Below, piece after piece: positions 27,775-63,729 of a stretch of 64,000 bases of DNA. The position numbers and the translations under genes were made by a program. The stretch is taken from positions 171,169,456 through 171,233,455 of the forward strand of contig CM030363.1 of the NCBI GenBank assembly GCA_017893485.1. Reading direction: 5' to 3'. Source of the stretch: Hemerocallis citrina (taxonomy: Eukaryota > Streptophyta > Magnoliopsida > Asparagales > Asphodelaceae). Position 1 is the stretch's first letter; every line of letters begins with the position of its first letter. Under the pieces are notes generated by a model. The model was not told the origin of the DNA. It did not search any database and saw nothing but the letters and a program-made list of their open reading frames with translations.

Positions 27775-28750
27775 TGTAAATCACCCCGGGGGGGAATAGG
27801 GTGATTGTGCGGAAATTAAAAATAATAATAAAAAAGTTACAAAGTAAATGAGAAGAGATAGAGAAAGCAAACACAGCAAGCACAAGTGAAGCAGCGATAT
27901 AACGTGGCTCGACCCTCAAGTCTACGTCCATACTACCTACTTGTAGCAATTCTCCGCCGCAAGCGATCCACTATACTCAAAGCCTTGTACAGTGATTCTT
28001 GGATTCAGGCCGAGAGACCTATTACACCCACAGGACTTCTAAGGCAAAGCCCCGTCAATCTCACCAAAGTGGAAGAAAAGAAAACTCATGATCTTTAATG
28101 ATCCTGACTAAAGAAAACAAATAAGTATTACACACTCGGATTGATTGTTGAATTGATTAGTTCAGAAGATTTTTCTTAGAGGAATAGGTGAGGAATACAC
28201 AGTGGGTTCTCTATATAGACTAGGAACTGTATCTCAGACTAGGAAGTGTATCCCTCAAAAATAGAAACGATACATTCCAAAAGAGTAATCTGCACGAGGT
28301 ACGGTCGACCGCAAATAAGGACAGTCGACCGTTCATCTTTTAATCGAAAAGTCAAAAGATGAATGGTCGACTGTAACTGTGATGAGCGGTCGACCGACAA
28401 AATGGTACGGTCGACCGCAATCGTGTTGATTCTAACGACACCACTTTATATTCTTACCATGTACTAATCAATCAATAATCAATCAATTACATATAAAATC
28501 TCACATATATGGAAGTACAGAAAATGATCTTGCTAGCTTTATTGGGCTCTAATCAACATGTGCTCTTTTTTAATAATGTCTTTTTTTACTTAATTTTGTA
28601 ATCCTTCTTTATTGCTTTCCTTCTTTTGCTTATTTTTGAATCTTTTTGACTCTCTTATTGATGTATTTATTCTTAAAAATCTGAACATCTTAATTGAAAC
28701 TTATTAGTATTTGTAAGCATATTTTGTGCACACCAAACTAAGAGTCAGCA
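27775..28750 (-). repeat. E left outer LTR (LTR-a)
   Basis: A 976-bp LTR, plus-strand ends TGTAAATCACCCC and AGAGTCAGCA. On the minus strand a TATA-like TCTATATAG lies at 28211-28219, with five GGTCGACC-type sites just upstream (28300-28415). It is the 3' LTR of the minus-oriented arm, as the adjacent polypurine tract shows. Confidence 0.88.
28295..28420. promoter_or_regulatory. U3 palindrome array, LTR-a
   Basis: Sites acggtcgaccgc, cagtcgaccgt, tggtcgactgt, gcggtcgaccga and acggtcgaccgc occur in 120 bp, about 80-200 bp upstream of the TATA-like box on the minus strand. Confidence 0.5.
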
Positions 28751-28763
28751 ATCTCCCCCCTTT
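28751..28763 (-). other. Polypurine tract of the left E arm
   Basis: The minus strand reads AAAGGGGGGAGAT directly before LTR-a, the same form as in element C (AAAAGGGGGAGAT). Confidence 0.8.
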
Positions 28764-29595
28764 GGTGTGAACAAAACATGTCTTTGAATGTTGAAAATAA
28801 AGTATATAAATACTCCCCCTTAATCCAATACTTCATGTATCAAAGATTTTCATAAGAGATATTTTCAGTATTTATTATCAGTAAAAACATTCATTCAATA
28901 TTTATTTTTAGTAAAAACATTCAAAAAGATTCTCCCCCTTTTTGGAACACACCAAGAGGGAACTAGAAATGAAAAATGATATATAAACAATACTCCCCCT
29001 AAATTCATGCATGGAGAATATAAATGAACATACAATAAGAATGTGAGTTTAGAGCAAACAGGAGAATAAGCAATTTGGGGGAATATTTCATTTTTGAAAA
29101 ACGGAAGGAAAATCTACTTACATGATACCGTTGATCGCGAGACTCTTTGACATACAGTGAGAGTTCTTCATGGTATCATAGATTTGAGATTTTCCCAATA
29201 GAAACGAGAGACAGTGCAGAAGATTAAAGAAATAAATTTCAAGAAATTAGAAACCATAGAAGAATTGTAAAACAGATATTCCTTGCACACAAAAAAAAAA
29301 AGCCAGAATCCAAAAGGGCAGAGGCGAGACCGATCGACTGCACGGTCGACCACAACTATACATACAGAGGGTAGTTTGACTAAGACCAAAGAAGGAACCG
29401 GTCGACCGCCCGGTCGACCGAAATACTTATACGACATGATTATAAAAAACAGAAGCATATAGCCAGATATGTGAGAATTTTTGCAAGCATTTAAAAGCAA
29501 TTTCTGGATAGATGTGATTACATAGTAAAAAGGTGCATACATGAGAATACTGGTTCATACTACAGTTATCCAATTACAATCTAATCACCAAGGAT
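28764..29595 (-). other. E left arm: region between ORF2 and polypurine tract
   Basis: Non-coding on the element strand. It includes ctccccct-type runs at 28810-28995 and GGTCGACC-type sites at 29343-29420. It mirrors 42357-43240 of the right arm. Confidence 0.6.
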
Positions 29596-30710
29596 CTATT
29601 CCTCATCATCATTATCACCACCATCATCTTCGTCTTCATTGTCCTCATCATCTTCATCATCATTGTCCTCATTATCAGGAGGAGAAAGAAATTCCCAATC
29701 GTTCTTGCCTTGCAAGTATTCAGTAGTGTTGACATAGTAACCATATACTTGCATTTGATGAGCGGCAAATTGCTCATGAGTCACGAACGAAGATAAGGAA
29801 GAGGGAGTAGTATTCTTGCGACGAGAGGAGGAAGGGGCTTGTACGGGTTGTTCGACTTGGCGCCCTTGTTAAGCTTGACGACGACGAGCCCGTTGGGAAA
29901 CGGAACATCAATGCCCATTTATTGAGGAAGAATTGGCAGAGGTTTTTTGCTCAAAAGAAAATTCTCAACATCAATACGGGAGTCGATAGCTAGATTGTAA
30001 ATAAGAGAACTATAGGGAAGGCCACAATTTCGAGAAGTTGCAAAATTCATGGTGTGAATAATAAACGTGGTAAGATCAAATTTATATTCGCCAAGAATGA
30101 GAAAGATTATGAACGACTGATCAACCCGTATTTCAGACTTGTCATTCTTTTTGGGCAAGATATTTGCATTTACGATTTTGTTCAAAATACGGGCAGAATT
30201 GGTAAAATTTGTGGGAGCGGGACTAGGAAGATGAGAAAATTCTGGTCGAACAATCATGGATTAGACAATATTTTTATCATGGCCGGGTTTATAGTCAAGT
30301 GTTTTGAAATCAAGATGATAAGCATCAAATTCTCCTTTGGGAAATTCATCTCCTACGAAGATATTCGGGAGTAATTTTGATTCTTTTTCCAAGAATGATA
30401 GAAGAGAGAGTGAGATCATTGTCTTGAAAGCCTTCAAGATTAGCATAAATTGACGAGTCAATGACTCGGAGTGGGTGCTTGGTGTAGCAAGATAATTCTC
30501 CCACCCAAAATCTCGAAGAATCCTAACTATAACAGATAATTGCCCGCCTAAGGATGCTAAAATTATCTCACGGTTGGCAACAACCAGAGCATTCCAAAGT
30601 GCAGAAAAATAAAGATCGGCGCAATTAGAATTTCTAAACGTAATACCTTCTCTAGTGACAAATTTTGAGGCTATAACGTTCTTACCCTTAGATCTGTGAG
30701 AGGAGGCCAT
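29596..30710 (-). pseudogene. ORF2 of E (left copy), putative plant transposon-protein domain
   Basis: It starts at the ATG 30708-30710 (MASSHRSKGKNVIASK), 130 bp downstream of a TATAAATA box. Followed across frameshifts it contains REGITFRNSNCADLYFSALW, an RQFYANLEGF-like block, PEFSHLPSPAPTNFTNSARI, NANILPKKNDKSEIRVDQSF and GLPYSSLIYNLAIDSRIDV, ending in an acidic tail (DNEDEDDGGDNDDEE). The FYANL and 'nilP..sev.v...l+..il' blocks resemble the domain called putative plant transposon protein (Transposase_32-like). No signal peptide or membrane helix is visible, so it is unlike a classic envelope. Stops at 30261-30263 and 29919-29921, plus frameshifts near 30440, 30360 and 29890, disrupt it. 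Confidence 0.68.
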
Positions 30711-30839
30711 GGAGCAAGAAAGAAGAAAACACCCAAAATTTAAGAGGGAATCGCAGAAAAATATGAAGTCTATTTAATGGGTTTTAGAGGAGGGAGGCTA
30801 GGGTTTACCGTGAAGATTGAGGGAGAGAAGATGGAAGAG

Positions 30840-31075
30840 TATTTATACTAAATGTGTAGGACCTGAATGTCATAGAAAGAAAGAGACCTAAGCAGCCGAT
30901 CGAATCGGTCGACCAATTCAAAGAGACGGTCGACCGCACCACAAGAGAAGAGGGGTTTTAATATAATAAGTTTTGGCAGAGAGGTGCACGGTCGACCATG
31001 CAATCGACCGGTCCACATTCGACTGATACCAATTTCCTACGTATAACACGGTCGACCGGTCGGTCAACCGAACAT
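30840..31075 (-). promoter_or_regulatory. Internal promoter module before ORF2 (left arm)
   Basis: A TATAAATA box (30840-30847, minus) is preceded by GGTCGACC-type palindromes at about 30905-31070 and followed by a leader with CCCTAGCC to the ORF2 ATG. The same arrangement stands in the right arm, so it pre-dates the duplication. Confidence 0.6.
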
Positions 31076-31219
31076 GCAACTGACTTTTAATTTCTGAAAG
31101 TCATTTTTCTTCGAATCAACATATTAATTTTAGATCAGGTTATAACATGTCAAGGAAAGTTGTTTTATGTTGTAAAATTCACACAATACATGCATTTCTT
31201 AGATAGATAACTGATGTTT

Positions 31220-31330
31220 TAAACATTTTACTTTGGAAATAAGTCATCTGTCATATGGTTTAAGCATCCGCTATCAAGGTTCCACCGATCTTTAGTCTTG
31301 ATACGTTGAGAGACCTACATCAAGATTAGT
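31220..31330 (-). pseudogene. E left arm: truncated protease
   Basis: The reading RIKTKDRWNLDSGCLNHMT keeps the D-S-G active site of Copia protease, then hits a stop within about ten codons. No GAG-pre-integrase, integrase or RT follows; the sequence passes straight to the ORF2 promoter region. The pol deletion begins here. Confidence 0.75.
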
Positions 31331-31383
31331 AGGTATAATTTTGGGTGCCCAAGTTTGTTTTGAACCTACATTTACATTCTTTC

Positions 31384-32264
31384 TTACCCAAACAAATTAG
31401 TATTCCAATTTAAAGAGCAATTATAGGAAATATGCCCTAATCTACAGCAATAGTGACATGTGATACGATTATGACTTGGGCTATGCACACTTGCATAGTT
31501 TTGTGCTGATTTGTGATTATGTTGGTGACTATGCATGTGTATGACATGATGACTTAGATTTTTGATGGTGTATTGGCTCTTCGTAACCAAACCCTCGATT
31601 ATCATGATAAGATCTTGAATTCTTTGTAACAAGGTAACAGAGCCCTTCATATTATTCAACAACTTTCTCGAGCTCCATTACTCTTTTACAAAGTCTTTTC
31701 CTAGTCATCTCATCGTCTTTTGTGTTCCAACGAAGAGTGTCTAGTGTTGCATCAAGTATTCTATTTTGTTCAAAAGCTTCATTACAACCCTCCACTACCT
31801 CATCAAATTTTCTTTTGCATTCTTTTAAATCATCAGTGAGTTTAGCAATATAAACAGATTTCTCATTAATTTCTCTTAGGTTTTCATCATGTGTTGCTAA
31901 GGATTCTTGAATTTGTTGTTTTAAATACTCATTTTCCTCTATCAACAAATCATGGTCTTTCCTAAATGACTCAAATTTTTTCATAATCAAAGAATTTTTA
32001 TTCTTCAGTTTTTTTATTTTTAGCGATGCAAGATGCATGTGATTCATTTGAAATTTGTTTATATTGTCTTACTTCACGACTCAATTTCTTAGCATAATCT
32101 TTTAATCCATTACACGTGTCTACTAAATCATCGTAATTGGGTTCCTCGATTACCTCTTCTTGAGATGATAATTGCACCTCACCATTCCCAAGAGCCATGA
32201 AACCAACATTGTTGTGATCTTGCTCATCCTCACTGAAATCTGAGTCTAACCTTGTTGCCTTCAA
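31384..32264 (-). pseudogene. E left arm: gag coiled-coil and second zinc knuckle
   Basis: A long charged helical stretch (SLIMKKFESFRKDHDLLIEE, LKQQIQESLATHDENLREIN, TDDLKECKRKFDEVVEG, MTRKRLCKRVMELEKVVE) has heptad-like spacing typical of a coiled coil. It is followed by a His-rich segment and a CCHC knuckle, CHYCCRLGHISYNC, at about 31430. Frameshifts fall near 32020 and 31660. It is homologous to 60725-61513 in element C. Confidence 0.75.
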
Positions 32265-33198
32265 CCCTTCTTTCTCAATCCTGGAATGGAGTGGTAGTTG
32301 TCCTTGTTCCTGTCCTGTGAGATGGGACAGTTTGAGCGAATGTATTCAAGCTTCTTGCATTTGTAGCATATGTCGTCTTTGTCCTTTTCTCTTTCTCCTT
32401 GGTACCTGCCGTATTTTTTATGTTTAAGATACATGCGAAATTGCTTAGTCAACAAGGCGATGTCTTCATCTGACTCCTCACAATCTGACTCTGCTTTTGA
32501 TGATCGAGATTTTTTGCTTTCAAGGCGATGGTCCTCTCTTCGGTTTTTGGTTCAATCCAGATGTTCTGCCTGAATCGTTTGGTTTCGGTCATCTCCATCT
32601 CGTATGCTTCAGTTTTCCTTGGAAGGTGTAGTAATCGAATCCCTTTTCCTCAAGGGTCTCCCTCATAGTGGTAGCTTTTACGTCTCATTCCTGCGTGAGA
32701 CAGCTTATGAGTTTCCGACCTTTCGATCATCATCCAACCCCTTACCTAAGCTCTAAAGCTCGTGTGCAATAATATCGAAATGGGCAAGCATTTGATCTAC
32801 GTTCTCTCCTGGCAACATACGAAAAAATATCAAACTTATAAAAACATAAATTAACTTTTGCTTTTACTTCAGATGCGGTTCCCTTATGCCATTTCAGCAT
32901 GTTGTTCCAAATTTCGTATGCAGTCTTGCAGTTTCGCCCACATCGCATTAATTCTTCATTGTTTAATCCTGCATAAAGAGCTGTCATAGCTTTGGAGTTT
33001 GTGGTTTTTAGTTCTAGCTCTGCTTTTAAGAAAGCCTTCTTTCCATCGCTGACAGAAATATCTGTTTTGTTTATGCACACATTCCATACTTCTTCTCCAA
33101 GCATCTGTAAGAAATGAGACATACGAACTTTTCAAACATCATAGCATTTTCCATCAAAATATGGTGAACGTGTTAGACTCGTCCCATTAGAGATGAAT
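32261..33198 (-). pseudogene. E left arm: gag N-part and first zinc knuckle
   Basis: The reading MSHFLQMLGEEVWNVCINKT, AMTALYAGLNNEELMRCGRN, TASEVKAKVNLCFYKFDIF is Copia gag of the same family as element C. It has frameshifts after FDIF and near 32640, and the first knuckle CYKCKKLEYIRSNC has lost its usual His. The gag start and primer site are missing because the arm is cut at about 33198 by the LTR of element D. Confidence 0.8.
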
Positions 33199-33919
33199 AG
33201 GGGCGTCAACAAACGTCTCTGGTCGCAGCGGAACTAATTAGAGCAATGAGGAAGTCGAGCAAGCAAGTAGATCCACCAATCTAAACACAAACACGAGGAT
33301 TTATCCCGTTAGCTTTTGCTTAATCCGAGGAGAAATATAGAAAGATCTGATATTCAACTAGAAAAGATTAAAAGGAGTTACTAATTCTCTCAATACAAGG
33401 AATTAAACTCACCGACCAAGAACTATATCTCTCTCGAGCCTCTCTTTGCAATGGAGAAAAGAATCAATGAAGTACTCTACTCTCATACTGGAGGAGTTTA
33501 TAATATATAGAAGAATAGAGAGAAACCTAGGTCTAATCTTGATTCACAGTCGTCCGATATAACCTAGAAAAGAAGTAACTGAACAGGAGCCGTACGATCT
33601 AACTTGGAGTTGAAAATTAGGCTGAAATGACCTAACAAATCGTGGCACAAAACGAACACAGCGCCGCGGTCGGTCAACCGTCCAACAAGACCGGTCGACC
33701 GACCACCTCTCGGCCAAACCCAGTGCAACTGCGGTTGGGTGTGAGATCGAGTGTGCGATCAAGGGTGCGGTTGACCGCAACTTGGGACAGTCGACCGCAA
33801 CTATGCCTACACCTTGCTGCTGTTGTTTTCCCTTCTATTCACTTCGATGCTTCAACCTCCGTGCTTCATCTTACCTTCTTCTAATCTAAACTATGAGTAT
33901 TCAAAACACATTCCTAACA
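33199..33919 (-). repeat. Element D 3' LTR (5'-truncated on the plus strand)
   Basis: A direct repeat of 35485-36219 from ggggcgtcaacaaacg to cattcctaaca. A TATA-like box on the minus strand lies at 33499-33510. Palindromes and variants (cggtcaaccg, cggtcgaccg, cggttgaccg, agtcgaccg) lie at 33665-33798. Confidence 0.85.
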
Positions 33920-34365
33920 AACTCCACCTTGGATTGCATATGAGTACTATCATATGATGTGTTATTCATCTCCAAACTCTAATAAACTCCACTTGCAAAA
34001 AAGGGCTTAGAACAATAGCTTCTTCTAGTTGAACTAATCTCTACCCAATCTCACCAATTCCAGTATACCTCTTCAAGGGTACACCTACGTAGGCGTACTC
34101 ACAGAGTTGCCAACCTCCGCACGAACTCCACCTACCCTTAAGCTTTCTCCACCTCTCGACGATATTCGAACGTCGTAGTCTCGTCTCGATGATTCTAGTT
34201 GCGGCAAACTAGCTGAGCTTAAGGGAATAACGGAAAAGAACTAACAACCCCTGCGCAGAATTTTCAGATTCCCCCAAGCTTGTAGAGATTGTGTTGGTTT
34301 GGCCCAACCACTCTCATACCTCTAATCACTACACGACGACCTTGAAAAACAAACAGAACGCCACC
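33920..34365 (-). other. Element D 3' region without pol
   Basis: There is no integrase, RT or RNase H reading here. The bases next to the LTR read AAGGTGGAGTT on the minus strand, a Tork-type polypurine tract. Confidence 0.65.
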
Positions 34366-34800
34366 TCAAACTGTGTACCTACAAACCCGTGCATCCAGAG
34401 TTCCCACAGAAATCAAATTCCGTTTCGACAGAGGAACATGCAAAACATCCCTTAAAGTGAACAAATTTGGACCTAGCATCTTCAACTCAACTATCCCCTC
34501 ACCTACGACTTCACAAATCTCCCCAGTTTCCGTTGTCACACAGCGCCCTGTAATAGACTTATAAGTAGAAAACAACTCCTTCTCGGAGCAAATATGAGAA
34601 GAACTTCTTGAATCAAGAAGCCAACTAGAATCTACTTCTAAAGAATTTGAAACAAGAAGACATGAATCACCTGAATCAAAGGCACTAACCACATTAGCGG
34701 CTGAACTCCCGTTCTTTGCGCTCTCCTGGTTTGCAACTTCCAACAATCTTTCTTGATATGCCTTGGCCTCTTGCAATAATGGCAATGGATCGAATCCTTT
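34366..34800 (-). pseudogene. Element D zinc knuckle and protease fragment
   Basis: A CCHC knuckle, CHYCKRPRHIKKDC, is legible at about 34755-34800 in a frame different from the open stretch that follows. That stretch has SWLLDSRSSSHICSEKELF, where the protease D-S-G is D-S-R, then ETGEICEVVGEGIVELKML and LRDVLHVPLSKRNLISVG. It stops before any GAG-pre-integrase domain. Confidence 0.8.
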
Positions 34801-35482: not shown

Positions 35483-35484
35483 TT

Positions 35485-36219
35485 TGTTGGAATTGGGACG
35501 TCAACAAATGCCTCTAGTTCCAGCGGAACTAATTAAAGCAATGAGGAAATCGAAGAGATGAGACAAATCAATTGAGCAAGCAAGTAGTACCACCAATCCA
35601 AACACAAACACAACGAGGATTTATCCCGGTTAGTTTTCGCTTAATCCGGGGGGGGAAATATAGAGAGATCTGATATTCAACTAGAAGAAATTACAAGGAG
35701 TAATTGATTCACTCAATACAAGGAATTAAACTCACCCATCAAGAACTAACTCTCTAGAACCTCTCTTTGCAATGGAGAAAAGAATCGATGAAGTACTCTA
35801 CTCTCATATTAGAGGAGTTTACAATATATATAGAAGAATAGAGAAAAACCTAGGTCTAATCATGATTCTCAATCGTCCGATATAACCTGAAAAAGTAAAT
35901 GAATAGGAGTCGTACGATCTAACTTGGAGTTGAAGATTGGGCTGAAACGACATAACAAATCGAGGCCCAAAACGAACATAGCGTCGTAGTCGGTCGACCG
36001 TCCAACAAGACCAATCGACCGTCCACCTCTCGTCCAAACCCAGTGCAACTGCGGTCGGGTGTGCGATCGGGGGTGCGGTCGACCGCAACTTGGGACAGTC
36101 GACCGCAACTATGCCTGCACTTTGCTATTGTTGTTTTCCCTTCTACTCACTTCGACCTCCGTGCTTCATCTTGCCTTCTTCTAATCTAAACCACGAGTAT
36201 TCAAGACACATTCCTAACA
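35485..36219 (-). repeat. Element D 5' LTR
   Basis: A 735-bp LTR with plus-strand ends TGTTGGAATTGGG and ATTCCTAACA. The TATA-like box lies at 35824-35833 (minus). Palindromes cggtcgaccgt, aatcgaccgt, cggtcgaccgc and agtcgaccgc lie at 35988-36110. Confidence 0.88.
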
Positions 36220-36236
36220 AGCAGCGGTCGACCGAG

Positions 36237-40760: not shown

Positions 40761-40894
40761 TCAGTTATCTATCTAAGAAATGCATGTACTGTGTGAATTT
40801 TACAACATAAAACAACTTTCCCTGACATGTTATAACCTGATCTAAAATTAATATGTTGATTCGAAGAAAAATGACTTTCAGAAATTAAAAGTCA

Positions 40895-41123
40895 GTTGCA
40901 TGTTCGGTCGACCGACCGATCGACCGTGTTATACGTAGGAAATTGGTATCAGTCGAATGTGGACCGGTCGACCGTCCACCTCTCTGCCAAAACTTATTAA
41001 ATCAAAACCCCGCTTCTCTTGTGGTGCGGTCGACCATCTCTTTGAACCGGTTGACCGATTCGATCGGCTACTTAGGTCTCTTTCCTTCTATGACATTCAG
41101 ATCCCACACATCTAGTATAAATA
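40895..41123 (+). promoter_or_regulatory. Internal promoter module before ORF2 (right arm)
   Basis: The palindromes cggtcgaccgaccgatcgac, ccggtcgaccgtcc, gcggtcgaccat and ccggttgaccgattcgatcg (40904-41070) are followed by TATAAATA at 41116-41123 and a leader with ACCCTAGCC. The ORF2 ATG is at 41253. It mirrors 30840-31075. Confidence 0.6.
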
Positions 41124-41252: not shown

Positions 41253-42356
41253 ATGGTCTCCTCCTCTCACAGATCTAAGGGTAAGAAAGCAATAGCCTCA
41301 AAATCTGTCACTAGAGAAGGTATTACGTTTAGAAATTCTAATTGTGCTGATCTTTATTTTTTTGCACTATGGAATGCTCCGGTTGTTGCCAACCGTGAGA
41401 TAAATTTAGCATCCTTAGGTGGGCAATTCTCTGTTATGGTTAGGATTCTTCGAGATTTTGGGTGGGAGAATTATCTTGCTACACCAAGCACCCACTCCGA
41501 GTCATTAATCTTGAAGGCTTTCAAGACAATGATCTAACTCTCTCTTCTATCATTCTTGGAAAAAGAGTCAAAATTACTCCCGAATATCTTCATAGGAGCT
41601 ATGAATTTCCTGAAGGAGAATTTGATGCTTATCATCTTGATTTCAAAATACTTGACTATAAACACGACCATGATAAAAAATACCGTCAAATCCATGATTG
41701 TTCAACCAGAATTTTCTCATCTTCCACATCCCGCTCCCACAAAATTTACCGATTCTGCCCGTGTTTTGAACAAAATCCTAAATACAAATATCTGGCCCAA
41801 AACGAATGACAAGTCAGAAATACGGGTTGATCAATCGTTCATAATCTTTCTCATTCTTGGCGAATATAAATTTGATCTTGCCACGTTTATTATTCGCACC
41901 ATAAATTTTGTAACTTCTCGAAATCGTGGCCTTCCCTACAGTTCTCTTATTTACAATCCAGCTATCGACTCCCGTATTGATGTTGGAAATTTTCTTTTGA
42001 GCAAAAATTCTATGCCAATTCTTCCTCAACAAATGGGCATTGATGTTCTGTTTACCTAACGGGCTCGCCGTCATCAAGCTTAACAAGGGCGCCAAGCCGA
42101 ACAACCCCCACAAGCCCCTTCCTCCTCTCGTCGCAAGAATACTACTCCATCTTTCTCATCTTCGTTCGTGACTCATGAGCAATTTGCCGCTCATCAAATG
42201 CAAGTATATGGTTACTATGTCAACACTATTGAATACTTGCAAGGCAAAGACAATTGGAAACTTCTTTCTCCTCTTAATAATGAGGAAAATGATGATGAAG
42301 ATGATGAAGACGATGAAGACGAAGATGATGGTGGTGATATTGATGATGAGGAATAG
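41253..42356 (+). pseudogene. ORF2 of E (right copy), putative plant transposon-protein domain
   Basis: It starts MVSSSHRSKGKKAIASK at 41253. Across three frames it carries REGITFRNSNCADLYFFALW, ILRDFGWENYLATPSTHSES, an LEGFQDNDLTLSSIILGKRV block, FDAYHLDFK, PEFSHLPHPAPTKFTDSARV, KSEIRVDQSFIIFLILGEYK, RGLPYSSLIYNPAIDSRI, FVTHEQFAAHQMQVYGYYV and an acidic tail. Frame breaks occur near 41500 and 41545, and the junction to the tail (42058-42165) includes a TAA shared with the left arm (aagcttaacaagg). The product resembles the putative plant transposon protein domain; its function is unknown. Confidence 0.7.
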
Positions 42357-43240
42357 ATCCTTGGTGATTAGATTGTAATTGGATAACTGTAGTATGAACC
42401 AGTATTCTCATGTATGCACCTTTTTGCTATGTAATCACATCTATCCAGAAATCGCTTTTAAATGCTTGCAAAAATTCTCACATATCTGGCTATATGCTTT
42501 TGTTTTTTTATAATCATGTCGTATCAGTATTTCGGTCGACCGGGCGGTCGACCAGTTCCTTCTTTGGTCTTAGTTAAACTACCCTCTGTATGTATATTTG
42601 CGGTCGACCGTGCAGTTGACCGGTCTCGCCTTTGCCCTTTTGGATTCTGGCTTGTTTTTTTTTTGTGTGCAAGGAAAATCTATTTACAGTTCTTCTATGG
42701 TTTCTAATTTCTTGAAATTTATTTCTTTAATCTTTTGCTCTATTTCTCTCGTTTGTATTGGGAAAATCTCAAATCTATGATACCATGAAGAGCTCTCACT
42801 GTATATCAAAGAGTCTCGCGATCAACGGTATCACGTAAGTAGATTTTCCTTCTGCTTTTCAAAAATGTAATATTCCCCAAAATTGCTTATTCTCATGTTT
42901 GCTCTTCGCTCACATTTTTATTGTATGTTCATCTATATTTTCCATACATGAATTTAGGGGAGTACTAAATTTAGGGGGAGTATGTTATACACATTGTTTA
43001 TATATCATTTATCATTTCTAGTTCCCTCTTGGTGTGTTCCAAAAAAGGGGAGAATCTTTTTGAATGTTTTTACTTAAAATAAATAATGAAAATCTCTCTT
43101 ATAAAAATCTCTCTTGAATGTTCTTTCTTCATATATACTATATATCTCTTACGAAAATCTTTGATACAGGAAGTATTGGATTAAGGGGGAGTATTTATAT
43201 GTTTTACTTTCAATATTCAAAGGCATGTTTTGTTCACACC
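42357..43240 (+). other. E right arm: region between ORF2 and polypurine tract
   Basis: Non-coding, mirrors 28764-29595. GGTCGACC-type sites lie at 42535-42625, including W-box-like cagttgaccgg. Runs of aggggga occur at 42955-43200. Confidence 0.6.
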
Positions 43241-43253: not shown

Positions 43254-44233
43254 TGTTGACTTTTAGTTTGGTATGCACAAAACGTACTTACAAATACTAA
43301 TAAATTTCAATTGAGATGTTCAGATTTTCAAGAATAAATAAATCAATAAGAACTTGTGCAAAAAGATTCAAAAATAAGTAAAAGAAGGAAAGCAATAAAG
43401 AAGGATTACAAAATCAAGCAAAAGAAGACATTATTCAAAAAGAGCACATGTTGATTAGAGCCCAAAAAGCCAGCAAGATCAATTTCTATACTTTCATATA
43501 TGTGAGATTTTATATGTAATTGATTGATTAGTATATGGTAAGAATATAAAGTGGTTGCGTCATAATCAACACGATTGCGGTCGACCGTACCATATTGTCG
43601 GTCGACCGCACCACAGTCGACCGCTCATCACAGTTAAAATGATGAGACAATCGACCATTCATCTTTGGACTTTTCGATTAAAAGATGAACGGTCGACTGT
43701 CCTTATTTGCGGTCGACCGTACCTCGTACAGATTACTCTTTTGGAATGTATTGTTTCTATTTTTGAGAGATACACTTCCTAGTCTATATATTTGGACGAA
43801 CCCACGGTGTATTCCTCACATATTCCTCTGAGAAAAATCTTTTGAACTAATCAATTCAACAATCAATCTGAGTGTGTGATACTTATTTATTTTCTTTAGT
43901 CAGGATCATTAAAGATCTTGAGTTTTTCTTTTCTTCCACTTCGGTGAGATTGACGGAGCTTGTCTTAGAAGTCTTGTAGGTGTAATAGGTCTCTCGGCCT
44001 GAATCCGAGAATCATTGTACAATGGTTGGAGTATAGTGGAGCGCTTGTGGCGGAGAATTGCTACAAGTATGTGGTGTGGACGTAAACCTGGGGGTTGAAC
44101 CACATTATATCGCTGCGTCACTTGTGCTTGTTGTGTTTGCTTTCTCTATCTCTTCTCATTTACTTTGCAACTTAATTTTAATTTTTTTTAATTTCAGCAC
44201 AATCACTCTATTCACCCCCCAGGGTGATTTACA
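43254..44233 (+). repeat. Third, inverted LTR of E (LTR-b)
   Basis: A 980-bp LTR starting TGTTGACTTTTAG and ending GGGTGATTTACA, in the opposite orientation to LTR-a and LTR-c. A TATA-like TCTATATAT lies at 43783-43791. Palindromes at 43578-43727 (gcggtcgaccgt, tcggtcgaccgc, acggtcgactgt, gcggtcgaccgt) lie 60-205 bp upstream. Confidence 0.88.
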
Positions 44234-44265: not shown

Positions 44266-45262
44266 TGGAAATCACCCTAAAGGGGTGAATAGGGTGATTG
44301 TGCGGAAATTTAAAAAAATTAAAATAAAGTTGCAAAGTAAATGAGAAGAGATAGAGAAAGCAAACACAGCAAGCATAAGTGACGCAGATATAACGTGGTT
44401 CGACCCCCAGGTCTACGTCCACACCACCTACTTGTAGCAATTCTCTGCCACAAGCATTCTACTATACTCAAACCCTTGTATAGTGATTCTTGGATTCAGG
44501 CCGAGAGACTTATTACACCCACAGGACTTCTAAGATAAGCCCCATCAATCTCACCGAAGTGGAAGAAAAGAAAAACTCAAGATCTTTAATGATCCTGATT
44601 GAAGAAAACAAATAAGTATCACACACTCGAATTGATTGTTGAATTGATTAGTTCAGAAGATTTTTCTCAGAGGAATAGGTGAGGAATACACAATGGGTTC
44701 GTCCAAATATATAAACTAGGAAGTGTATCTCTCAAAAATAGACACGATACATTCCAAAAGAGTAATCTGCACGAGGTACGGACGACCGCAAATAAGTACA
44801 GTCGACCGTTCATATTTTAATCGAAAAGTCCTAAGATGAATGGTCGACTGTCTCATCATTTTAACTATGATGAGCGGTCGACTGTGGTGTGGTCGACCGA
44901 CAGTATGGTACGGTCGACCGCAATCGTGCTGATTCTAACGAAACCACTTTATATTCTTACCATATACTAATCAATCAATAATCAATCAATTACATATAAA
45001 ATCTCACATATATGGAAGTACAGAAATCGATTTTGCAGACTTTCTTGGGCTCTAATCAACATATACTCTTTTTTAATAATGTCTTCTTTTGCTTGATTTT
45101 GTAATCCTTCTATATTGTTTTCCTTCTTTTGCATATTTTTGAATCTTTTTGACTCTCTTATTGATTTATTGATTTATTTATTCCTGAAAAATCTGAACAT
45201 CTTAATTGAAACTTATTAGTATTTGTAAGCACGTTTTGTGCACACCAAACTAAGAGTCAACA
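44266..45262 (-). repeat. E right outer LTR (LTR-c)
   Basis: A 997-bp LTR with plus-strand ends TGGAAATCACCC and AGAGTCAACA, minus-oriented. A TATA-like TTTATATAT lies at 44706-44714. Palindromes lie at 44776-44926. With LTR-a it shares the ctttt duplication, so it is the 5' LTR of the integrated unit. Confidence 0.88.
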
Positions 45263-55716: not shown

Positions 55717-56719
55717 TGTAAATCACCCTAGGGGTAAATAGGGTAATTGTGCGGAATTAAAAAATTAATTAAAATGAAGTGCAAAGTAAATAAAAGAGTT
55801 AAGAAGAGGAAACGCAGATAACACAAGTGACGCAGCGATGTAACGTGGTTCGACCCCCAGGTCTACGTCCACACCTCCTACTTGTAGCAAGTCTCCGCCA
55901 CAAGCGTTCAACTATACTCAAGACCCTTGTATAGTGATTCTCGGATTCAGTCTGAGAGACCTATTACACCCACAGGACGTCTAACACAAGTCCCGTCAAT
56001 CTCACCGAAGTGGAAGAAAAGAAAAATTCAAGATCCTAAATGATCCTGACTGAAGAATACAAAAATTATCACACACACTCGGATTGATTATTGAAAGATT
56101 AGTTCAGAAGATTTTTCTCAGGAGTAATTGGTGAATAATACTCAGTGGGTTCGGCCAATTAAATAGACTGGGAAGTGTATCGATCAAAATTAGAAACGAT
56201 ACATTCCGAAAATGTGAACAGCACAATGTGTGATCGACCGCAATCTTGGTGCAGTCGACCGTTCATCTCTCTGACGTAAAGTAGAGAGATGAAAGGTTGA
56301 CTACTTCTTACGCAACTGAGAGTTGCAGTCGGCTGCGATGCGTTCGACCGTCATGAGGTGCGGTGGACCGATATCGTGCTGTTCATACCGAATCCACTTT
56401 ATATTCTTTCCAAATAAACTAATCAATCAATCAATCAATTTTACATAGATTTAAATCTCACAAATATAGAATGATAGTAGCTGGTCTTGATGGCTTTCTT
56501 GGACATTAATCAATCAACTCTTTCTTTTTTAATATCTTCTTCTTTGCTTGATTTCTTAATCTCTCTTTATTACTTTCCTTCTTTGAATATTCATGAATCT
56601 CTCTTGAATCTCTTATGGATATTACTTGATCCTGATAATCTGAATAACTCAATTCAAACTTATTAATATTTATAGACACATTTTGTGCACACCAAACTAG
56701 GAGTCAATAAGAGTCAACA
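55717..56719 (-). repeat. Element C 3' LTR
   Basis: A 1003-bp LTR, plus-strand ends TGTAAATCACCC and AGAGTCAACA. A TATA-like TCTATTTAAT lies at 56157-56166, with palindromes and decayed variants at 56230-56385 just upstream on the minus strand. Confidence 0.9.
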
Positions 56720-56732: not shown

Positions 56733-57640
56733 GGTGTGAGTAAAACATGCCTTTGAATATTAAAAATATAAAAAATTAAACAATTTGGCATAAGAATACT
56801 CCCCCTGAATTGAGTACTTCCTGTAACACAGATTTTCATAGGTAAGGAGAGATTTGTAAATACTCCCCCTTAATCTATTATTTGATGGAAAATAAAAGCT
56901 ATTGATTTATGTTTACTTTAATGCATTGATAATATTCATAATATTCTCCCCCTTTTAGGAACACACCAATAGGGGACAAAAGACACATATAAATTACCCC
57001 TCACAAAAACTATTTGTAAATGAAAAGAACCTTTCATTAAGCATAAAAAGAGATATAAAGTTTGGAGAAAGAAAGATTTGTAAAAAAACGAAAGAAAATC
57101 TAATTACATGATACCGTTGATAGCGAGACTCTTTGATATATAGGGAGAGCTCTTCATGATATCATAGATTTGAGATTTCCCTAGTATAGATGCGAAGTAG
57201 GGATAAGAAGAATGAATTTCAAGAAATTGAGGTTATTGGAAAAATTAGTAGAGAGTTTTAAAAAAATTCAACTTGTAACCAGAAAGAGAACCGGTCGACC
57301 GCAAAACCAATTAGGCAAAAAAAAATTCCATAGAGAAAACCGTTCAACCGCTCGGTTGACCGCACTCCTATTTCAAAAACACAATGTATCTCAGAGAGCA
57401 AACCAGTCGACCGTTTATCTTGTAAAGACAAAAATAATGAAACAGAGGATGAGCCGGTCGACCACACGGTCGACTGCAAATACTAAAAGCCAATATGCTG
57501 AAAGTAAAGTATAAATCAAATTTTACCCGAGAGTAAATCGGCTGGCCACACAGTCGACCGTACACCCTTACAGGCGTACAGTCGCCCGTTCAGTCGACCA
57601 AAATGAAATTTCAAGCTGAGATATCAATAACATTTAGTTC
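56733..57640 (-). other. Element C 3' untranslated region with palindromes
   Basis: No domain recognised. GGTCGACC-type sites and variants occur at 57290-57600 (ccggtcgaccgc, cggttgaccgc, cagtcgaccgt, ccggtcgacca, acggtcgactgc). The region occupies the position held by ORF2 in E. Confidence 0.65.
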
Positions 57641-58125
57641 TCCTATCAAAAAATGAAATCGTTTTTCATCTAAAGGTTTGGTAAAAATATCAGAAAGTTG
57701 CGAATCAGTAGAAACATATTCAAGAAAAATATCTCCCTTTTAAAAATGGTCTTTAATAAAGTGATACCGAATATCAATGTGTTTAGTGGGACTGTGTTGA
57801 TCAGAGTTCTTTGTCATATGAACAGTACTAGTGTTATCACATTTAATTGGAATGTGATCAAAAAATACCTTGTAGTCCTCTAGATTGTGTTTCATCCATA
57901 GTACCTGCGCACAGTAAGATCCTGCTGCAATATATTTAGCTTCGGCAGTTAAGAGAGTTACAGAGTTTTATTTTTTGGATGCCCATGAGACAAGACAGTT
58001 GCCCAAGAAGTGACATGTGCTGCTAGTGCTTTTTCTGTCTGTTAAGCTACCGGCATAATCTGCATCAGAAAATCCTACAAGTGAAAATTTTCTATTTTTC
58101 GGATACCAAAGTCCAGTATTTAGTG
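57641..58125 (-). pseudogene. Element C RNase H
   Basis: Decayed RNase H: FSDADYAGSLTDRKSTSSTC, a stop after SWASKK, then AEAKYIAA (Glu to Lys in the usual TEAEYIAA) and KCDNTSTVHMTKN. It ends in FTKPLDEKRFHFL near 57645. A frameshift near 58210 separates it from RT. Confidence 0.82.
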
Positions 58126-59148
58126 TGCCTTTGAGATATCAAATGATACGCTTAACGGCAACCAAATGCAATTCTTTGGGACACGATTGGAAACGTGCAC
58201 ATAACAAACGCTAAACATAATATCTAGATGAGATGCAGTAATATAAAGTAAACTACCAATCATACCTCGATAAGTAGAAATATCAACATTGTTACCAGAT
58301 TCATCTTTTGAAAGCTTAGTAGTAGTGGCCATAGGTGTTTTGTACTCATTTACATTTTCATGTCCAAACTTTTTGACTAGTTCCTTTGCGTGCTTGGATT
58401 GATTTATAAAGATGCCATCCTTTCTTTGGTGTAATTGAAGCCCAAGAAAATAAGTTAGTTCTCCCATCATACTCATATCGAACTCATCCTGCATTTGCTT
58501 TGAGAATTCATTGCAAAAATTTTCATTAGTGGATCCAAATATAATATCATCAACATATATTTGAACAATTAAAATATCTTTAGAAACATATTTTATGAAA
58601 AGTGTAGTGTCTACTTTTCTTTTAGAAAAACCTATGTGAAGTAGAAATGAACTTAGTCGTTCATACCAAGCACGAGGAGCTTGCTTCAAACTATACAATG
58701 CTTTATCAAGACGAAATACATGGTTTGGGTATGTGGGATCAGTGAATCCCGGCGGTTGTGCAACATAAACTTCTTCCGAAATAAAACTATTTAAAAATGC
58801 ACTTTTAATATCCATTTGAAAGAGAGTAAAATCCATATAAGTAGCAAATGAAAGTAAAATACGAATGGCTTCAAGCTGTGCAACAGGTGCAAAAGTTTCA
58901 TCAAAATCTACACCTTCTTGTTGGTTATAACCTTGTGCAACAAGATGGACCTTATTTATAGTGATTGATCCTAAACACCCACTTAGTTCCATGTATAGTT
59001 CTATTATGAGGTCTAGGAACAAGTCTCCATACTTGATTCCGTTTGAATTGATTAAGTTCTTCTTGCATTGCCATGATTCAGTCATTATCTTGCAATGCAT
59101 CCTTAATATTTTTAGGTTCAAGTATAAAAAACAAAAGCGTAAAAACAC
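58120..59148 (-). pseudogene. Element C reverse transcriptase
   Basis: Motifs are HLVAQGYNQQEGVDFDETFA, LFQMDIKSAFLNSFISEEVY, LKQAPRAWYERLSSFLLHIG and the catalytic IYVDDIIFGSTNE. These are followed by MSMMGELTYFLGLQLHQRKD and MIGSLLYITAS. The upstream part (KWVF region) is broken near 58950. Confidence 0.9.
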
Positions 59149-59270
59149 ATAAAATTTTGTGCTTGTGTGCGAGTGGTTACCCCTTTTGACATATCGCTTC
59201 GTATAAGAGTTGGTGGATGGCTAGACATGATTTTCCATGCAGGACGCCTTTCACTTGTGAAAATTTGATG

Positions 59271-60071
59271 TTATACATGTTCATCTTCCATGGCATCAAT
59301 TTGTTGTGTAGGCATCTCTTCTATTTGCGATTTGAATGCATCTTCATCTTGATGCAATTTTTGATTTTGAGCATTCCTATTTGGGTCTTCTTCAATGTGA
59401 ACTTGTTTCTTTTCAACCCGAACACATGTCTCATCATCATCAATAACATACAATATTTCTTTGGTGTAAGGATTAGTATTATAAAAAACAATATCAATGG
59501 ATTCCTGAACTGTGCAGCTTCTTTTATTAAATACACGATATGCTTTGCTATTAAGAGAATATCCTAAGAATACACCTTCATCACTTTTACGATCAAATTT
59601 TCCCAAATTATCAAGAGTATTTAAAATAAACACTTTACATCCGAAGACGCGAAAGTAACTTAAGTTAGGAATTTTGCCATAATATAGTTCAAAAGGAGTT
59701 TTCTCAAGATATTTTCTAATGATTACTTGGTTAATTGTATAACATGCTGTATTGACAGCCTCCGCCCAAAATGATTTAGGTAAACCTTTTTCACTAAACA
59801 TGGTTAGGGCCATTTCTTGAATAGATCGATTTTTTCTTTCAACAACCTCATTTTGTTGGGGAGTGCGAGGACAGGCGAACTCATGTCTTATTCTCTTTTT
59901 ATCACAAAATGAGGTGAAGAGTTCGTTTTGAAATTCTCCACCATGATCACTACGAATAGTGACTATGGTGAAGCTTTTCTCATTTTCCACTCTCCAACAG
60001 AATTTCATACAATGTGTCATCTTTTTGTGGCAAAAAGTCAACCCAAGTAAATCTACTATAATCATCAACAA
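59271..60071 (-). pseudogene. Element C integrase core
   Basis: It carries IRSDHGGEFQNELFTSFCD (second Asp), CPRTPQQNEVVERKNRSIQE (catalytic Glu), FWAEAVNTACYTINQVIIRK and FRVFGCKVFILNTLDNLGKF. The ORF overlaps the upstream protease-integrase ORF by about 90 bp in another frame, so a single frameshift near 60030 splits integrase. Confidence 0.9.
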
Positions 60072-60740
60072 TTACAAAGGCATATCGTGCACCTCCATTA
60101 CTACGTGTTCGTGATGGTCCAAAAAGATCCATGTGCAAGAGTTCAAGGGGTCTAGAAGTTGATACCATTTTCTTGGATTTGTGAGAATTTTTAGTTTGCT
60201 TACCAAATTGGCACGACCCATACGGTTTATTTTTCTCAAATTTGATTTTAGGGATCCCCCTTACAAGTTCCTTGGTTACGAGTTTGTTGAGATTGTCCAT
60301 GGCTGTGTGTCCAAGTCTTCTATGCCATAACCAACCATCCTCATTTCTTGCAACAAAGCACCTCATATTTTTTTGTGTTAATTCATTAGAATTTATAACA
60401 TAAACATTGTTACATCGGTTAGCGAGAAGTAAACAAGATTTATTGCTATCTAATACAGTGCATGTACTTTTGTCAAAAGTAATGGTGTAACCTTTATCAC
60501 ATAATTGGCTGACACTAATTAGATTATGTTTCAAACCTCTTACCAATAGAACATCCTTAATGGAGCATGAGGAACCAAAGTTTATTTTTCCTTTACCAAT
60601 GGTTTGACCAGTGCTATTATCTTTAAAGATGATATCCTTCCCTCTTTCCCTTGATAGTAATGTAAAGTATCTGCCGTCCCATGTCATATGATTTGAGCAT
60701 CCACTATCAAGGTACCACCGATCTCTAGTCTTGATACGCT
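59980..60740 (-). pseudogene. Element C protease, GAG-pre-integrase, integrase N-part
   Basis: It starts with RDRWYLDSGCSNHMTWDGRY, an intact D-S-G protease site. Then come VLLVRGLKHNLISVSQLCDK, the GAG-pre-integrase GWLWHRRLGHTAMDNLNKL (its usual C-x-x-C reads GSCQ) and the integrase first Asp (LLHMDLFGPSRTRS), followed by VIVDDYSRFTWVDFLPQKDD. Confidence 0.9.
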
Positions 60741-61513
60741 GAGGTACCTACATAAAGATTAGTATGTATAATTTTGCGTGCCCAAGTTTGTTTTGAACCT
60801 GCATTAACATTCTTTGTTCCCCAAACAAAGTTAGTGTTCTTTTTTAATGAACAGTTATATGAAATATGTCCTAATCTACTACAGTAATGACGTGTGATAC
60901 GACTATGTCTCGAGTCATGCACACTTGTATAGTTTTGAGTTGGTTTATGATTATATTGGAGATTGTGCAAGTGTGTATGACATGATGATTTACATTTTTG
61001 CTGGTGTATTGGCTCTTTGTAACCGAGCCCTCGATTATCATGATAAGATCTTAAATTTTTTGTAATAAGAAAACTGGGCCCTTCATATTTTTTCACAATT
61101 TTTTCAAGCTCAGTTACTCTTTTACATAATCTTTTCCTAGTCATCTCATTTTCTTTTGTATTCCAACGAAGAGTGTCTAGTGTAGCATTAAGGATCCTAT
61201 TTTGTTTAGGAGCTTCATTACATCCTTCCACTACCTCACCAAATTTTCTTTTGCATTCTTTTAAATCATCTGTGAGTTTGGCGATATAAACAGATTTATC
61301 ATGAATTTCTCTTAAGTGATCATCATGTGTTGCTAAGGACTCTTGAATTTGTTGTTTTAAAAGTTCATTTTCCTCTAGTAATACATCATGATCTTCTCTA
61401 ATTGACCCAAATTTTTCCAAGATCAAGTCATTCTTATTTTTCAGTTTTTGATTTTTTTGCAATGCAAGAGTCATGTATTTCATTTGAAATTTGTTTATAT
61501 TGCCTAAGTGCAC
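60725..61513 (-). pseudogene. Element C gag coiled coil and second knuckle
   Basis: An unbroken 262-residue reading. It has a coiled coil (LILEKFGSIREDHDVLLEEN, LLKQQIQESLATHDDHLREI, TDDLKECKRKFGEVVEG, RKRLCKRVTELEKIVKKYE), a His/Gln-rich stretch, then the second knuckle RHYCSRLGHISYNC with its first Cys changed to Arg. The coil probably drives gag assembly. Confidence 0.82.
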
Positions 61514-61850
61514 GACTTAATTTCTTAGCATAATCTTTTAAACCATTACACATGTCTACTAGCTCATCATAAGTGGTTTCTTTAATTACCTCTTCTTGAG
61601 ATGGTGATTGCACCTCACCATTACCAAGAGCCATAAAGCCGACATCATCGTAGCCATGTTCTCTCTCACTTGAATCAGAGTCTAACCATGTTGCCTTCAG
61701 TGCCTTTTTTTTCAGTCCTGGGTTTGAGCGATAGTAATCCCTATTCATGGCTTGTGAGACGGGACAATTGGCACGGATGTGTCCAGGCTTCTTGCACTTT
61801 ATAGCAAACGTCATCCTTATCTTTCTCCCTTTCTCCTTGGTATCTACCAT
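61434..61850 (-). pseudogene. Element C gag first knuckle and acidic linker
   Basis: The knuckle is read IKCKKPGHIRANC. A one-base insertion (tgctataaagtgcaag) puts its first Cys out of frame. SDSSEREHGYDDVGFMALGN and YDELVDMCNGLKDYAKKLSR follow, as in E. Confidence 0.82.
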
Positions 61851-62681
61851 ATTTTTTTATATTTGAGATACTTACAAAATTGCTTGGTCATTAGGGCAAT
61901 GTCCTCATCTGACTCCTCGCAATCTGAATCTTCTTTTGATGGTCGGGATTTTTTGGCTTTTAGTGCAATGGTTTTCTCTTTGGTTTTTGGTTCAATCCCG
62001 ATGTTTTGTCTGTATCTTTTGGTTTCCGTCATTTCCATCTCATATGTATTCAGCTTTTCGTGGAATGTGTAGTAGTCGAAACCCTTTTGTTCGAGGGTCT
62101 TCCTCATTGCAGCAGCCTTTACATCCCACTCTGGCGTGAGACAGCTTATGAGGTTTCTGACCTTTCGGTCATCATCCAACCCCTTACCTAAGCTCTCAAG
62201 TTCGTGGGTAATGATATCAAAACGTGCGAACATTTAATCCACATTTTTCCCTAGCAACATGCGAAACACATCAAACTTATAAAAACATAAATTAACTTTA
62301 GCTTTTACCTCAGAAGCGGTTCCCTCATGCCACTTCAGCATGTTGTTCCAGATCTCGTATGCTATCTTACAGTTTCGCCCGCATCGCATTAGTTCTTCGT
62401 TATTTAACCCTGCATAGAGATCCGTCATGGCTTTGGAATTTGCTGTCTTAAGAGCCAGCTCCGCTTTTGTGAAAGCTGTCTTTCCGTCGTTGACTGGAAT
62501 ATCTATTTTATTGAAGCACACATTCCATACTTCTTCTCCAAGCATCTGTAGAAAATGAGACATACGAACTTTTCACGTCATAGCATTTTCCATCATAAAA
62601 TGGTGAGCGTGTAAGGCTTGTCCCATTGGAGACGAATGGATCCGATGAGTACAAGTTTTCGGGAGGAGGGATTTCGGCCAT
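61844..62681 (-). pseudogene. Element C gag N-part
   Basis: The start ATG is at 62679-62681 (MAEIPPP..), 43 bases inside the primer site. A two-base deletion near 62572 shifts the frame before MSHFLQMLGEEVWNVCFNKI. A CAA-to-TAA stop at 62234-62236 precedes MFARFDIITHELESLGKGL, LISCLTPEWDVKAAAMRKTL and YTFHEKLNTYEMEMTETKRY. Closely homologous to gag of E. Confidence 0.88.
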
Positions 62682-62724
62682 TGGACCTTTTGCTTAAGCT
62701 TTTAAGCTTTTTGATAAGCACCTC

Positions 62725-62736
62725 GCTCTGATACCA
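62725..62736 (-). other. Element C primer binding site
   Basis: The minus strand reads TGGTATCAGAGC, followed by GAGGTGC, one base inside the 5' LTR. Confidence 0.92.
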
Positions 62737-62737
62737 C

Positions 62738-63729
62738 TGTAATCACCCTAGGGGGGTGAATAGGGTGATTGTGCGGAATTAAAAAATTAATTAAAATGAA
62801 GTGCAGAGTAAATAAAAGAGTTAAGAAGAGCAAACATAGATAACACAAGTGACGCAGCGATGTAACGTGGTTCGACTCCCAGGTCTATGTCCACACCTCC
62901 TATTTGTAGCAATTCTCCGTCACAAGCGTTCCACTATACTCAAAACCCTTGTACAGTGATTCTCGAATTCAGGCCGAAAGACCTATTACACTTACAGGAC
63001 TTCTAACACAAGTGCCGTCAATCTCACCGAAGTGGAAGAAAAGAAAAACTCAAGATCCTAAATGATCCTGACTGAACAATACAAAAATTATCACACACAC
63101 TCGGATTGATTGTTGAAAGATTAGTTCAGAAGATTTTTCTCAGGAGTAATTGGTGAATAATACTCAGTGGGTTCGGCCAATTAAATAGATTGGGAAGTGT
63201 ATCGATCAAAATTGGAAACGATATATTCTGAAAATGTAAACAGCGCAAAGTACGGTCGACCGCAATCTTGGTGCAGTTGTCGTTCATCTCTCTGATGTAA
63301 AGTAGAGAGATGAAAGGTCGACTGCTTCTTACGCAACTGAGAGTTGCATCGACTACGATGCGGTCGACCGTCATGAGGTGCGGTCGACCGATATCGCGCT
63401 GTTCATACCGAATCCACTTTATATTCTTACCAAATAAAGTAATTAATTAATCAATCAATTTTACACAGATTTAAATCTCACAAATATAGAATGATAGCAG
63501 CTGGTCTTGATGGCTTTCTTGGACATTAATCAATCAACTCTTTCTTTTTTAATATCTTCTCCGTTTGCTTGATTTCTTAATCTTTCTTTATTACTTTCCT
63601 TCTTTGAATATTCTTGAATCTCTTATGGATACTATTTGATCCTGAAAATCTGAATAACTCAATTCAAACTTATTAGTATTTATAGACACGTTTTGTGCAC
63701 ACCAAACTAGGAGTCAACAAGAGTCAACA
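62738..63729 (-). repeat. Element C 5' LTR
   Basis: A 992-bp direct repeat of 55717-56719. The TATA-like box TCTATTTAAT is at 63180-63189. The palindrome array acggtcgaccgc, aggtcgactgc, gcggtcgaccgt and gcggtcgaccga lies at 63253-63395, 65-215 bp upstream. Confidence 0.9.

Follow-up and report, generated by a model that had tools for sequence, protein, structure and literature searches.

Arrays of GTCGAC-core palindromes in Copia retrotransposons of Hemerocallis citrina: Sirevirus-type repeated-motif boxes as predicted sites of a dimeric DNA-binding protein

Why should retrotransposon families with unlike long terminal repeats (LTRs) carry arrays of the same short palindrome? The question is raised by a stretch of 64,000 nucleotides from Hemerocallis citrina (assembly GCA_017893485.1, contig CM030363.1, positions 171,169,456 to 171,233,455, forward strand; the window in the following), for which an initial annotation had described palindromes with a TCGA core in LTRs of the Copia families A, C, D and E and in a solo LTR, here termed F. 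The comparison with shuffled controls proposed there was run on the window, where RGTCGACY occurs 73 times as opposed to a mean of 1.64 (standard deviation 1.23, maximum 4) in 100 dinucleotide-preserving shuffles. The core GTCGAC is present 83 times (shuffle mean 5.58, maximum 11, in 100 shuffles of the same type), and the longer CRGTCGACYG is found 42 times exactly and at 131 sites with up to two mismatches. Sequence outside elements A, E/D and C amounts to 30,044 bp, and not a single RGTCGACY lies there, nor in the unrelated Copia element X (50301-55001). The cluster intervals enclosing all 73 sites total 3,150 bp, these intervals having been drawn post hoc with the clusters already seen. 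The palindrome arrays are real and enriched within Copia elements.

At the U3 intervals named for A, E, C and D, the arrays were recovered with 3 and 3, 5, 5 and 5, 1 and 4, and 2 and 3 exact GTCGAC cores, respectively. The array claimed for the solo LTR was not, as F holds no exact box, its four boxes (spacings of 21, 41 and 20 bp) each having one mismatch. Elements and U3 arrays are as follows.

8268..16727, minus strand: element A, Copia; LTRs 8268-9750 (3') and 15243-16727 (5'), 97.4% identical
9220..9345: U3 array of the A 3' LTR (CAGTCGACTG type), 3 exact sites; last box 118 bp before CTATAAAAAG
16200-16320: U3 array of the A 5' LTR, copy of the 3' array, 3 exact sites
22185..22849, plus strand: F, solo LTR; four decayed boxes at 22309, 22330, 22371 and 22391; TATA at about 22559
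28290..28430: U3 array of the E1 3' LTR, 5 exact sites; TATA 88 bp downstream in sense
33195-36220, minus strand: element D; LTRs 33195-33920 and 35490-36220, 84% identical
33660..33810: U3 array of the D 3' LTR, 2 exact sites
35980..36115: U3 array of the D 5' LTR, 3 exact sites; spacings 21, 64 and 20 bp including one-mismatch sites
36226..36233: single exact box at the junction of the D 5' LTR and the E2 primer binding site (PBS), within 36220-36240
43560..43730: U3 array of the E2 3' LTR, 5 exact sites; TATA 69-70 bp downstream
44770..44930: U3 array of a minus-strand E LTR, taken as the E1 5' LTR, 5 exact sites
55721-63731, minus strand: element C; LTR pair 92.5% identical
56225..56390: U3 array of the C 3' LTR, mostly decayed, 1 exact site
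63240..63400: U3 array of the C 5' LTR, 4 exact sites; TATA-like CTATTTAATT 69 bp downstream

E1 (minus strand) and E2 (plus strand) are related copies, 88% identical over 3,976 columns, that flank D, and the LTR at 44266-45262 matches that at 27775-28750 at 87%. The two copies (27775-45262) point towards one another with D between them; most of pol is missing from both, and gag is joined to the linker at a similar place, so that they may represent a shortened subfamily. The lone junction box sits where the 5' LTR of E2 would be expected.

A position upstream of the U3 TATA box, as initially described for the arrays, applies to 31 of the 73 exact sites, whereas 41 are situated elsewhere in the elements and one at the D/E2 junction. 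In U3, the last box (up to one mismatch) precedes the TATA-like box by 88, 70 and 69-70 bp in the E LTRs, by 69 and 90 bp in the 5' and 3' LTR of C, by 118 bp in both LTRs of A, by 162-165 bp in the D 5' LTR and by 164-168 bp in F. In the D 3' LTR the value is only 41 bp owing to an isolated one-mismatch box; the main array there stops about 165 bp short of the TATA. The distance from array to TATA is constant and family-specific. In C and E, the boxes occupy about 330-480 of the roughly 1,000-bp LTR, with the TATA 69-90 bp past the last box.

The 41 sites outside U3 belong to U5 of A, the linkers of A and C, open reading frames (ORFs) of A, and arrays of E before and after an envelope-like ORF.

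8340..8545: array at the U5 end of the A 3' LTR, 5 exact RGTCGACY; pairs in A U5 spaced 22, 20 and 21 bp
15320-15510: array at the U5 end of the A 5' LTR, copy, 4 exact RGTCGACY
10120..10260: A linker array directly after pol, 4 exact sites; no listed ORF of at least 120 aa in the linker
11930..12030: A array within the open frame of pol, at the hinge joining integrase SH3 to reverse transcriptase (RT), 4 exact sites, all K/Q-S-T
13540..13760: A array in an open frame between CCHC and protease-like (BBD) pieces, 5 exact sites
29320..29430: E1 array downstream of the envelope-like ORF, with 3 exact sites and spacings of 12 bp
30880..31080: E1 array preceding the envelope-like ORF, 4 exact sites; GTATAAATAC 62 bp past the last box
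40890..41070: E2 array preceding the envelope-like ORF, 3 exact sites; GTATAAATAC 62 bp past the last box
42520..42630: E2 array after the envelope-like ORF, 3 exact sites
57280..57610: array in the C linker, which runs from pol to the polypurine tracts (PPTs), 6 exact sites; no listed ORF of at least 120 aa

Separate open frames of A give matches to gag, CCHC, BBD, integrase SH3 and RVT_2. While the hinge boxes all encode K/Q-S-T, of the five at 13540..13760 four translate as S-R-L/P and one as K-S-T. The same DNA is thus used in two reading frames, and the shared thing is therefore the nucleotide sequence and not a peptide. Box-encoded heptads, in any of the three frames, are found in 0 of the 120 relatives of A pol listed from 7,978 matches, none of which bears a lineage name, so the coding arrays of A look derived. 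As a separate observation, box clusters recur along A with a period of about 870 bp, all seven falling close to multiples of it (R 0.99; equal regularity in 2 of 2,000 random placements), a periodicity noted post hoc in one element.

Boxes of this type are already in the literature. Palindromic repeated motifs (RM) upstream of the LTR TATA have been reported for 13 Sireviruses (Bousios et al. 2010, PMC2829016), with CGGTCGACCG as the Vitis consensus in Table 3 of that paper. RM regions there are CpG islands, the TATA following on average 37 bp after the island, and RM also occur in the linker where an envelope gene is present, 77 of 79 linker copies being located before the gene, for which an internal promoter was proposed, albeit unproved. 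According to the accessible sections of the paper, RM were found only in Sireviruses, four elements lacking an envelope gene had no linker RM, and a common binding site for a single factor was not found (PMC2829016). In the window, a box 10-mer is identical to the Vitis consensus, and the arrays of C and E show the palindrome with the CGG-CCG signature and are rich in CpG (observed/expected 1.4-1.9). Given the 2010 description, as far as its accessible text goes, the C and E boxes are assigned to the published kind and those of A, D and F to a variant of it. The A boxes read CAGTCGACTG or a one-base variant and lack the CGG-CCG signature.

The elements themselves were compared with Sirevirus hallmarks. 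C possesses PPT octamers AGGGGGAG at 56729, 56806, 56870 and 56953, the terminal one of these with ATTG, and the polyC signal in both LTRs; E shows three octamers in E1 and two in E2, deviating terminal PPTs, and likewise the polyC signal in both LTRs. With several AGGGGGAG PPTs and the polyC integrase signal, both C and E are predicted to be Sireviruses. In A, two octamers and the polyC stretch are present, while the terminal PPT AGAGAGAGAATG and the PBS TATCCGAGC (versus TATCAGAGC) deviate. The RTs of A and C are 63% identical over 226 residues, that of element X being 28-36% identical to either (A-X 36%). D has no AGGGGGAG octamer, the PPT-like AGGTGGAG only once and no polyC stretch near the LTR end. 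Its short internal region comprises gag and a protease-like piece, with RT absent, and its gag is 21% identical to that of A and without a match to C or E; among 53 candidates no homologue of this gag was found. Boxes are carried also by D, where two Sirevirus hallmarks are absent, and by F.

What distinguishes the arrays beyond mere copy number is their spacing. Twelve non-redundant arrays were tested with boxes of up to one mismatch, excluding the junction site and eight homologous copies (from the second LTRs of A, C, D and E and from the E2 arrays), and the same boxes were placed randomly within the same spans in 5,000 trials. Of 46 adjacent spacings, 20 measure 19-23 bp, whereas random placement gave a mean of 6.0 and a maximum of 15. 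Restricting the analysis to exact boxes leaves 13 spacings, five of them between 10 and 60 bp, and four of these five again fall into the 19-23 bp class, which corresponds to about two helical turns. Except for one D-F pair, the spacers between boxes are mostly unrelated; therefore, it is the distance that recurs and not a copied 21-mer.

A second line of evidence comes from conservation. Contrary to the initial view that the LTRs are unalignable across families, those of C and E align at 78% over 1,006 columns, and D and F appear homologous by eye, although blastn returns only short pieces and, with boxes masked, two matches at E 0.037. Accordingly, the LTRs form three groups (A; C/E; D/F). 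The alignment indicates that the arrays are common to C and E by descent; for D and F this is probably so as well. When boxes were defined in E and scored in C (three E and two C LTR rows), 209 of 234 box positions were identical, compared with 531 of 828 in flanks within 30 bp and 3795 of 4710 in the rest of the LTR. In the reverse comparison, from C boxes to E, the respective values were 110/112, 360/548 and 4065/5112. Hence, boxes are 89-98% and flanks 64-66% identical between E and C, and on shifting the E2 box columns from -40 to +40, identity peaks at shift 0 (0.90) among the shifts computed. Within the LTR pairs of single elements, the identities of boxes and flanks are 98 and 96% in A, 83 and 94% in C, 90 and 89% in D, and 98 and 93% in E1, the latter assuming that the LTRs at 27775 and 44266 are one pair. 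Pooled, the pairs differ at 18 of 258 box positions (7.0%) and 50 of 745 flank positions (6.7%), i.e. without a gap. A gap between families that is missing in the pooled pairs suggests that active lineages kept the boxes while dead copies do not. Spacing and between-family conservation thus support selection on the boxes, as deduced from the sequence comparison.

In both E copies, the internal array is followed by GTATAAATAC, a leader and then a broken ORF.

41116..41122, plus strand: candidate internal TATA of E2; E1 copy at 30847 on the minus strand
41253..42356, plus strand: broken envelope-like ORF region of E2; frame 41538-42056 with sub-threshold PF20167 match

The E2 frame 41538-42056 matches PF20167 at 2.2e-7 and 31.4 bits, below the curated cut-off of 45, whereas the envelope-like frame of E1 and two other E2 frames gave no profile match, and none of 102 candidate homologues of the envelope-like frame reached E 0.001 or better. 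A Citrus protein carries a full PF20167 domain (4.2e-21) after a Copia RT, and a Vitis protein a sub-threshold one in the same position, which fits an extra ORF after pol. As a TATAAAW is found 40-120 bp downstream of about 10% of all positions in the E linker by chance, a second promoter of E before the envelope-like ORF is suggested only as a candidate.

The WRKY W-box has the core TTGACC, which is contained in GGTTGACC/GGTCAACC. The W-box-like variants listed in the initial annotation at 33669, 33769, 41049 and 42615 are all present. Its idea that CpG decay yields such cores agrees with 25 boxes having one core mismatch and intact outer bases, among which 10 are CpG transitions giving TTGAC on one strand and 15 are other changes, the next commonest core variant being ATCGAC with 5 of the 25. 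If all 18 changes were equal, only 2.8 CpG transitions would be expected, and the excess characterizes the W-box-like strings as decay products. No sign was seen among these boxes that W-box strings are kept. A W-box function was judged weak and put aside, since intact boxes read TCGAC, not TTGAC, and W-box strings occur only in decayed boxes.

Taken together, the palindromes are best interpreted as Sirevirus-type RM boxes functioning through a predicted dimeric DNA-binding protein, an interpretation that we consider probable, with considerable reserve. The boxes would be dyad sites in cis-regulatory arrays located in the LTR and, in E, before the envelope-like ORF. One DNA-binding protein, probably a transcription factor of the host, would occupy each box as a dimer, and boxes two helical turns apart would present these dimers on the same face of the DNA for joint binding. 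The jointly bound dimers might then switch on transcription from the LTR promoter and, in E, from a second one serving the envelope-like ORF. The single GTCGAC core in all families present here fits one host factor. The enhancer initially proposed is plausible along these lines and, for the same motif class, had been put in print in 2010 (PMC2829016, accessible part), but most of the copies in the window are outside U3.

Several observations weigh against the dimer interpretation. A U3 enhancer would not be expected to have copies in U5 or within coding frames, and the U3 arrays also fold as stable RNA hairpins. Six spacings, all in the linker arrays of E and C, are of 12 bp and thus not a whole number of turns, and for boxes further apart than first neighbours no significant helical phase is seen (84 pairs, R 0.17, p about 0.09 at 10.5 bp). 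The E and C rows behind the conservation gap are not independent, and the E1 pair alone shows better conserved boxes (98 versus 93%), contrary to the pooled result, with the C pair showing the reverse (83 versus 94%). Finally, the internal TATA of E has the chance expectation of about 10% given above, and since E1 and E2 agree at 90-98% throughout the linker, its identity in the two copies carries little weight.

The main rival, which we regard as unlikely but worth serious attention, is that the arrays act as RNA or cruciform hairpins in packaging, stability or processing and are used by the host as a source of small RNAs. RNA folding beats shuffled sequences in five of seven arrays (z-scores of -9.6 for E2 U3, -7.0 for C 5' U3, -5.4 for the A hinge, -4.5 for D 5' and -2.9 for A U5), while the E array before the envelope-like ORF and F both only reach -1.5, with 14 of 200 shuffles as good. 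In the E/C U3, a 20-pair stem has two boxes at its base; 91.9% of its cells are paired, three pairs differ between E and C on both sides, and the covariation score is 0.160 compared with 0.086 in shuffles (0 of 500 as high). On the other hand, the number of doubly changed pairs was reached by 104 of 500 shuffles, slid structures give up to 2, the RNAalifold covariation term is unfavourable (+2.6), and arm matching may stem from inter-arm repair. In maize, small RNAs concentrate on the palindrome clusters of Sirevirus LTRs, according to the accessible text of PMC5311732 and PMC10760457. Still, any palindrome array folds, and a fixed 20-22 bp spacing is unnecessary for a hairpin. Irrespective of this, the E and C U3 arrays (43560-43730, 63240-63400) contain a second small hairpin between boxes whose arm sequences differ between E and C.

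Alternatively, one array module might have been exchanged between families by recombination or gene conversion without common function today, which appears improbable. The shared stretch of 34-38 bp comprising two boxes in the D 5' and E2 LTRs (87-88% identity, E 1.4e-7 and 4.8e-7) would suit this and may be the remainder of an old exchange, and D and F have one spacer identical at 10 of 10 positions. However, box-masked LTRs leave no A-C/E, A-D or D-E match of note, the arrays of A keep the AGTCGACT form throughout, and E and C retain boxes while flanks diverge. A D-E module extending into the spacers found no support, as their identity of 7/10 equals the shuffled level (mean best 0.71), the 34-38 bp match notwithstanding. 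Between groups only boxes and spacing are alike, which speaks against one recent exchange. Of the two origins initially offered, a shared module or convergence, descent therefore holds within C/E and probably D/F, with the likeness between groups limited to boxes and spacing. Least credible, and in our view very improbable, is a mutational or structural by-product in which tandem duplication or quasi-palindrome repair multiplies boxes without selection, since the approximately 70-bp tandem duplication in A U5 (8359-8482 versus 8430-8552, 75%) and the mutually matching arms of the E/C stem are opposed by the mostly unrelated spacers, by E-C boxes more conserved than their flanks despite a mutable central CpG, and by the same core in three LTR groups and two reading frames.

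Returning to binding by a dimeric protein, a far-reaching version of it would have one such protein, host- or element-encoded, reading a genome-wide palindrome code, with at least three Copia lineages, one of them non-Sirevirus, having gained the box independently, and with the spread in A, through U3, U5, linker and the pol and gag-pol frames at intervals of about 870 bp, suiting a provirus-coating array for self-recognition or anti-silencing; this we deem quite unlikely. VANDAL elements possess sequence-specific anti-silencing systems that are comparable in principle to such an array of A.

While no binding factor has accompanied RM boxes since their description in 2010, as far as the accessible text of PMC2829016 goes, the present results provide concrete predictions for a dimeric binder. 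These rest on the two-turn spacing, the conservation of boxes over flanks, the core shared by unlike Copia groups and the copies in coding frames. If it is true that different lineages of one host share a box, this would mean a tuning of retrotransposon promoters to factors specific to the host. The accessible RM table of PMC2829016 points the same way in our own reading, as CGGAC/GTCCG halves are common to maize HOPIE, OPIE-2 and PREM-2, and CGGTC-N-GACCG to rice Osr10 and Osr8, rice Osr9 being the exception. In the literature searched, with most subscription papers beyond reach, neither an RM-box binding factor nor a 21-bp spacing was found.

Other features of the window are imperfect tandem repeats over about 3 kb at 18924-21964 (66-77% identity between copies), an open frame at 23165-23968 whose weak match to a RING finger stays under the curated cut-off, and the LTR-like repeats of about 200 bp in element X. 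Pattern matches in viral contigs (at least 120 stretches and, in a second scan, 1) were taken as chance, the 121 loci having a median GC content of 0.65; one IMG/VR stretch of 2.4 kb (L121) holds 21 GTCGAC, 8 of them within 150 bp.

Compared with known systems, the boxes resemble the Vitis RM (PMC2829016) in the palindromic CGGTCGACCG, the many copies upstream of the LTR TATA, the CpG-rich arrays of E and C and, possibly, the E linker copies before a broken envelope-like ORF. In contrast to the RM of that paper, as far as its accessible part describes them, A uses CAGTCGACTG without CGG-CCG, its boxes extending to U5 and to open coding frames, the linker boxes of A and C are not accompanied by a listed ORF, E has boxes also after the ORF (there 77/79 before), and boxes are carried by D, without Sirevirus marks, and F, while RM were Sirevirus-only. 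The 19-23 bp spacing, the E-C conservation gap, the reading-frame copies of A, the internal TATA of E and the presence in D and F go beyond that accessible text. The maize Sirevirus palindromes (2016 study, via the accessible text of PMC5311732 and PMC10760457) are similar in forming arrays in the LTR regulatory region, but their motif CACCGGACNNNGTCCGGTG has another core, and the small-RNA data belong to maize. The WRKY W-box is matched only by decayed boxes of the window, namely 10 of the 25 sites with a single core mismatch. Box I of Tnt1 and the dyad activator of Drosophila copia (PMC2829016, accessible part), likened by description, are also short symmetric repeats near a Copia promoter, yet both elements are outside the Sirevirus genus.

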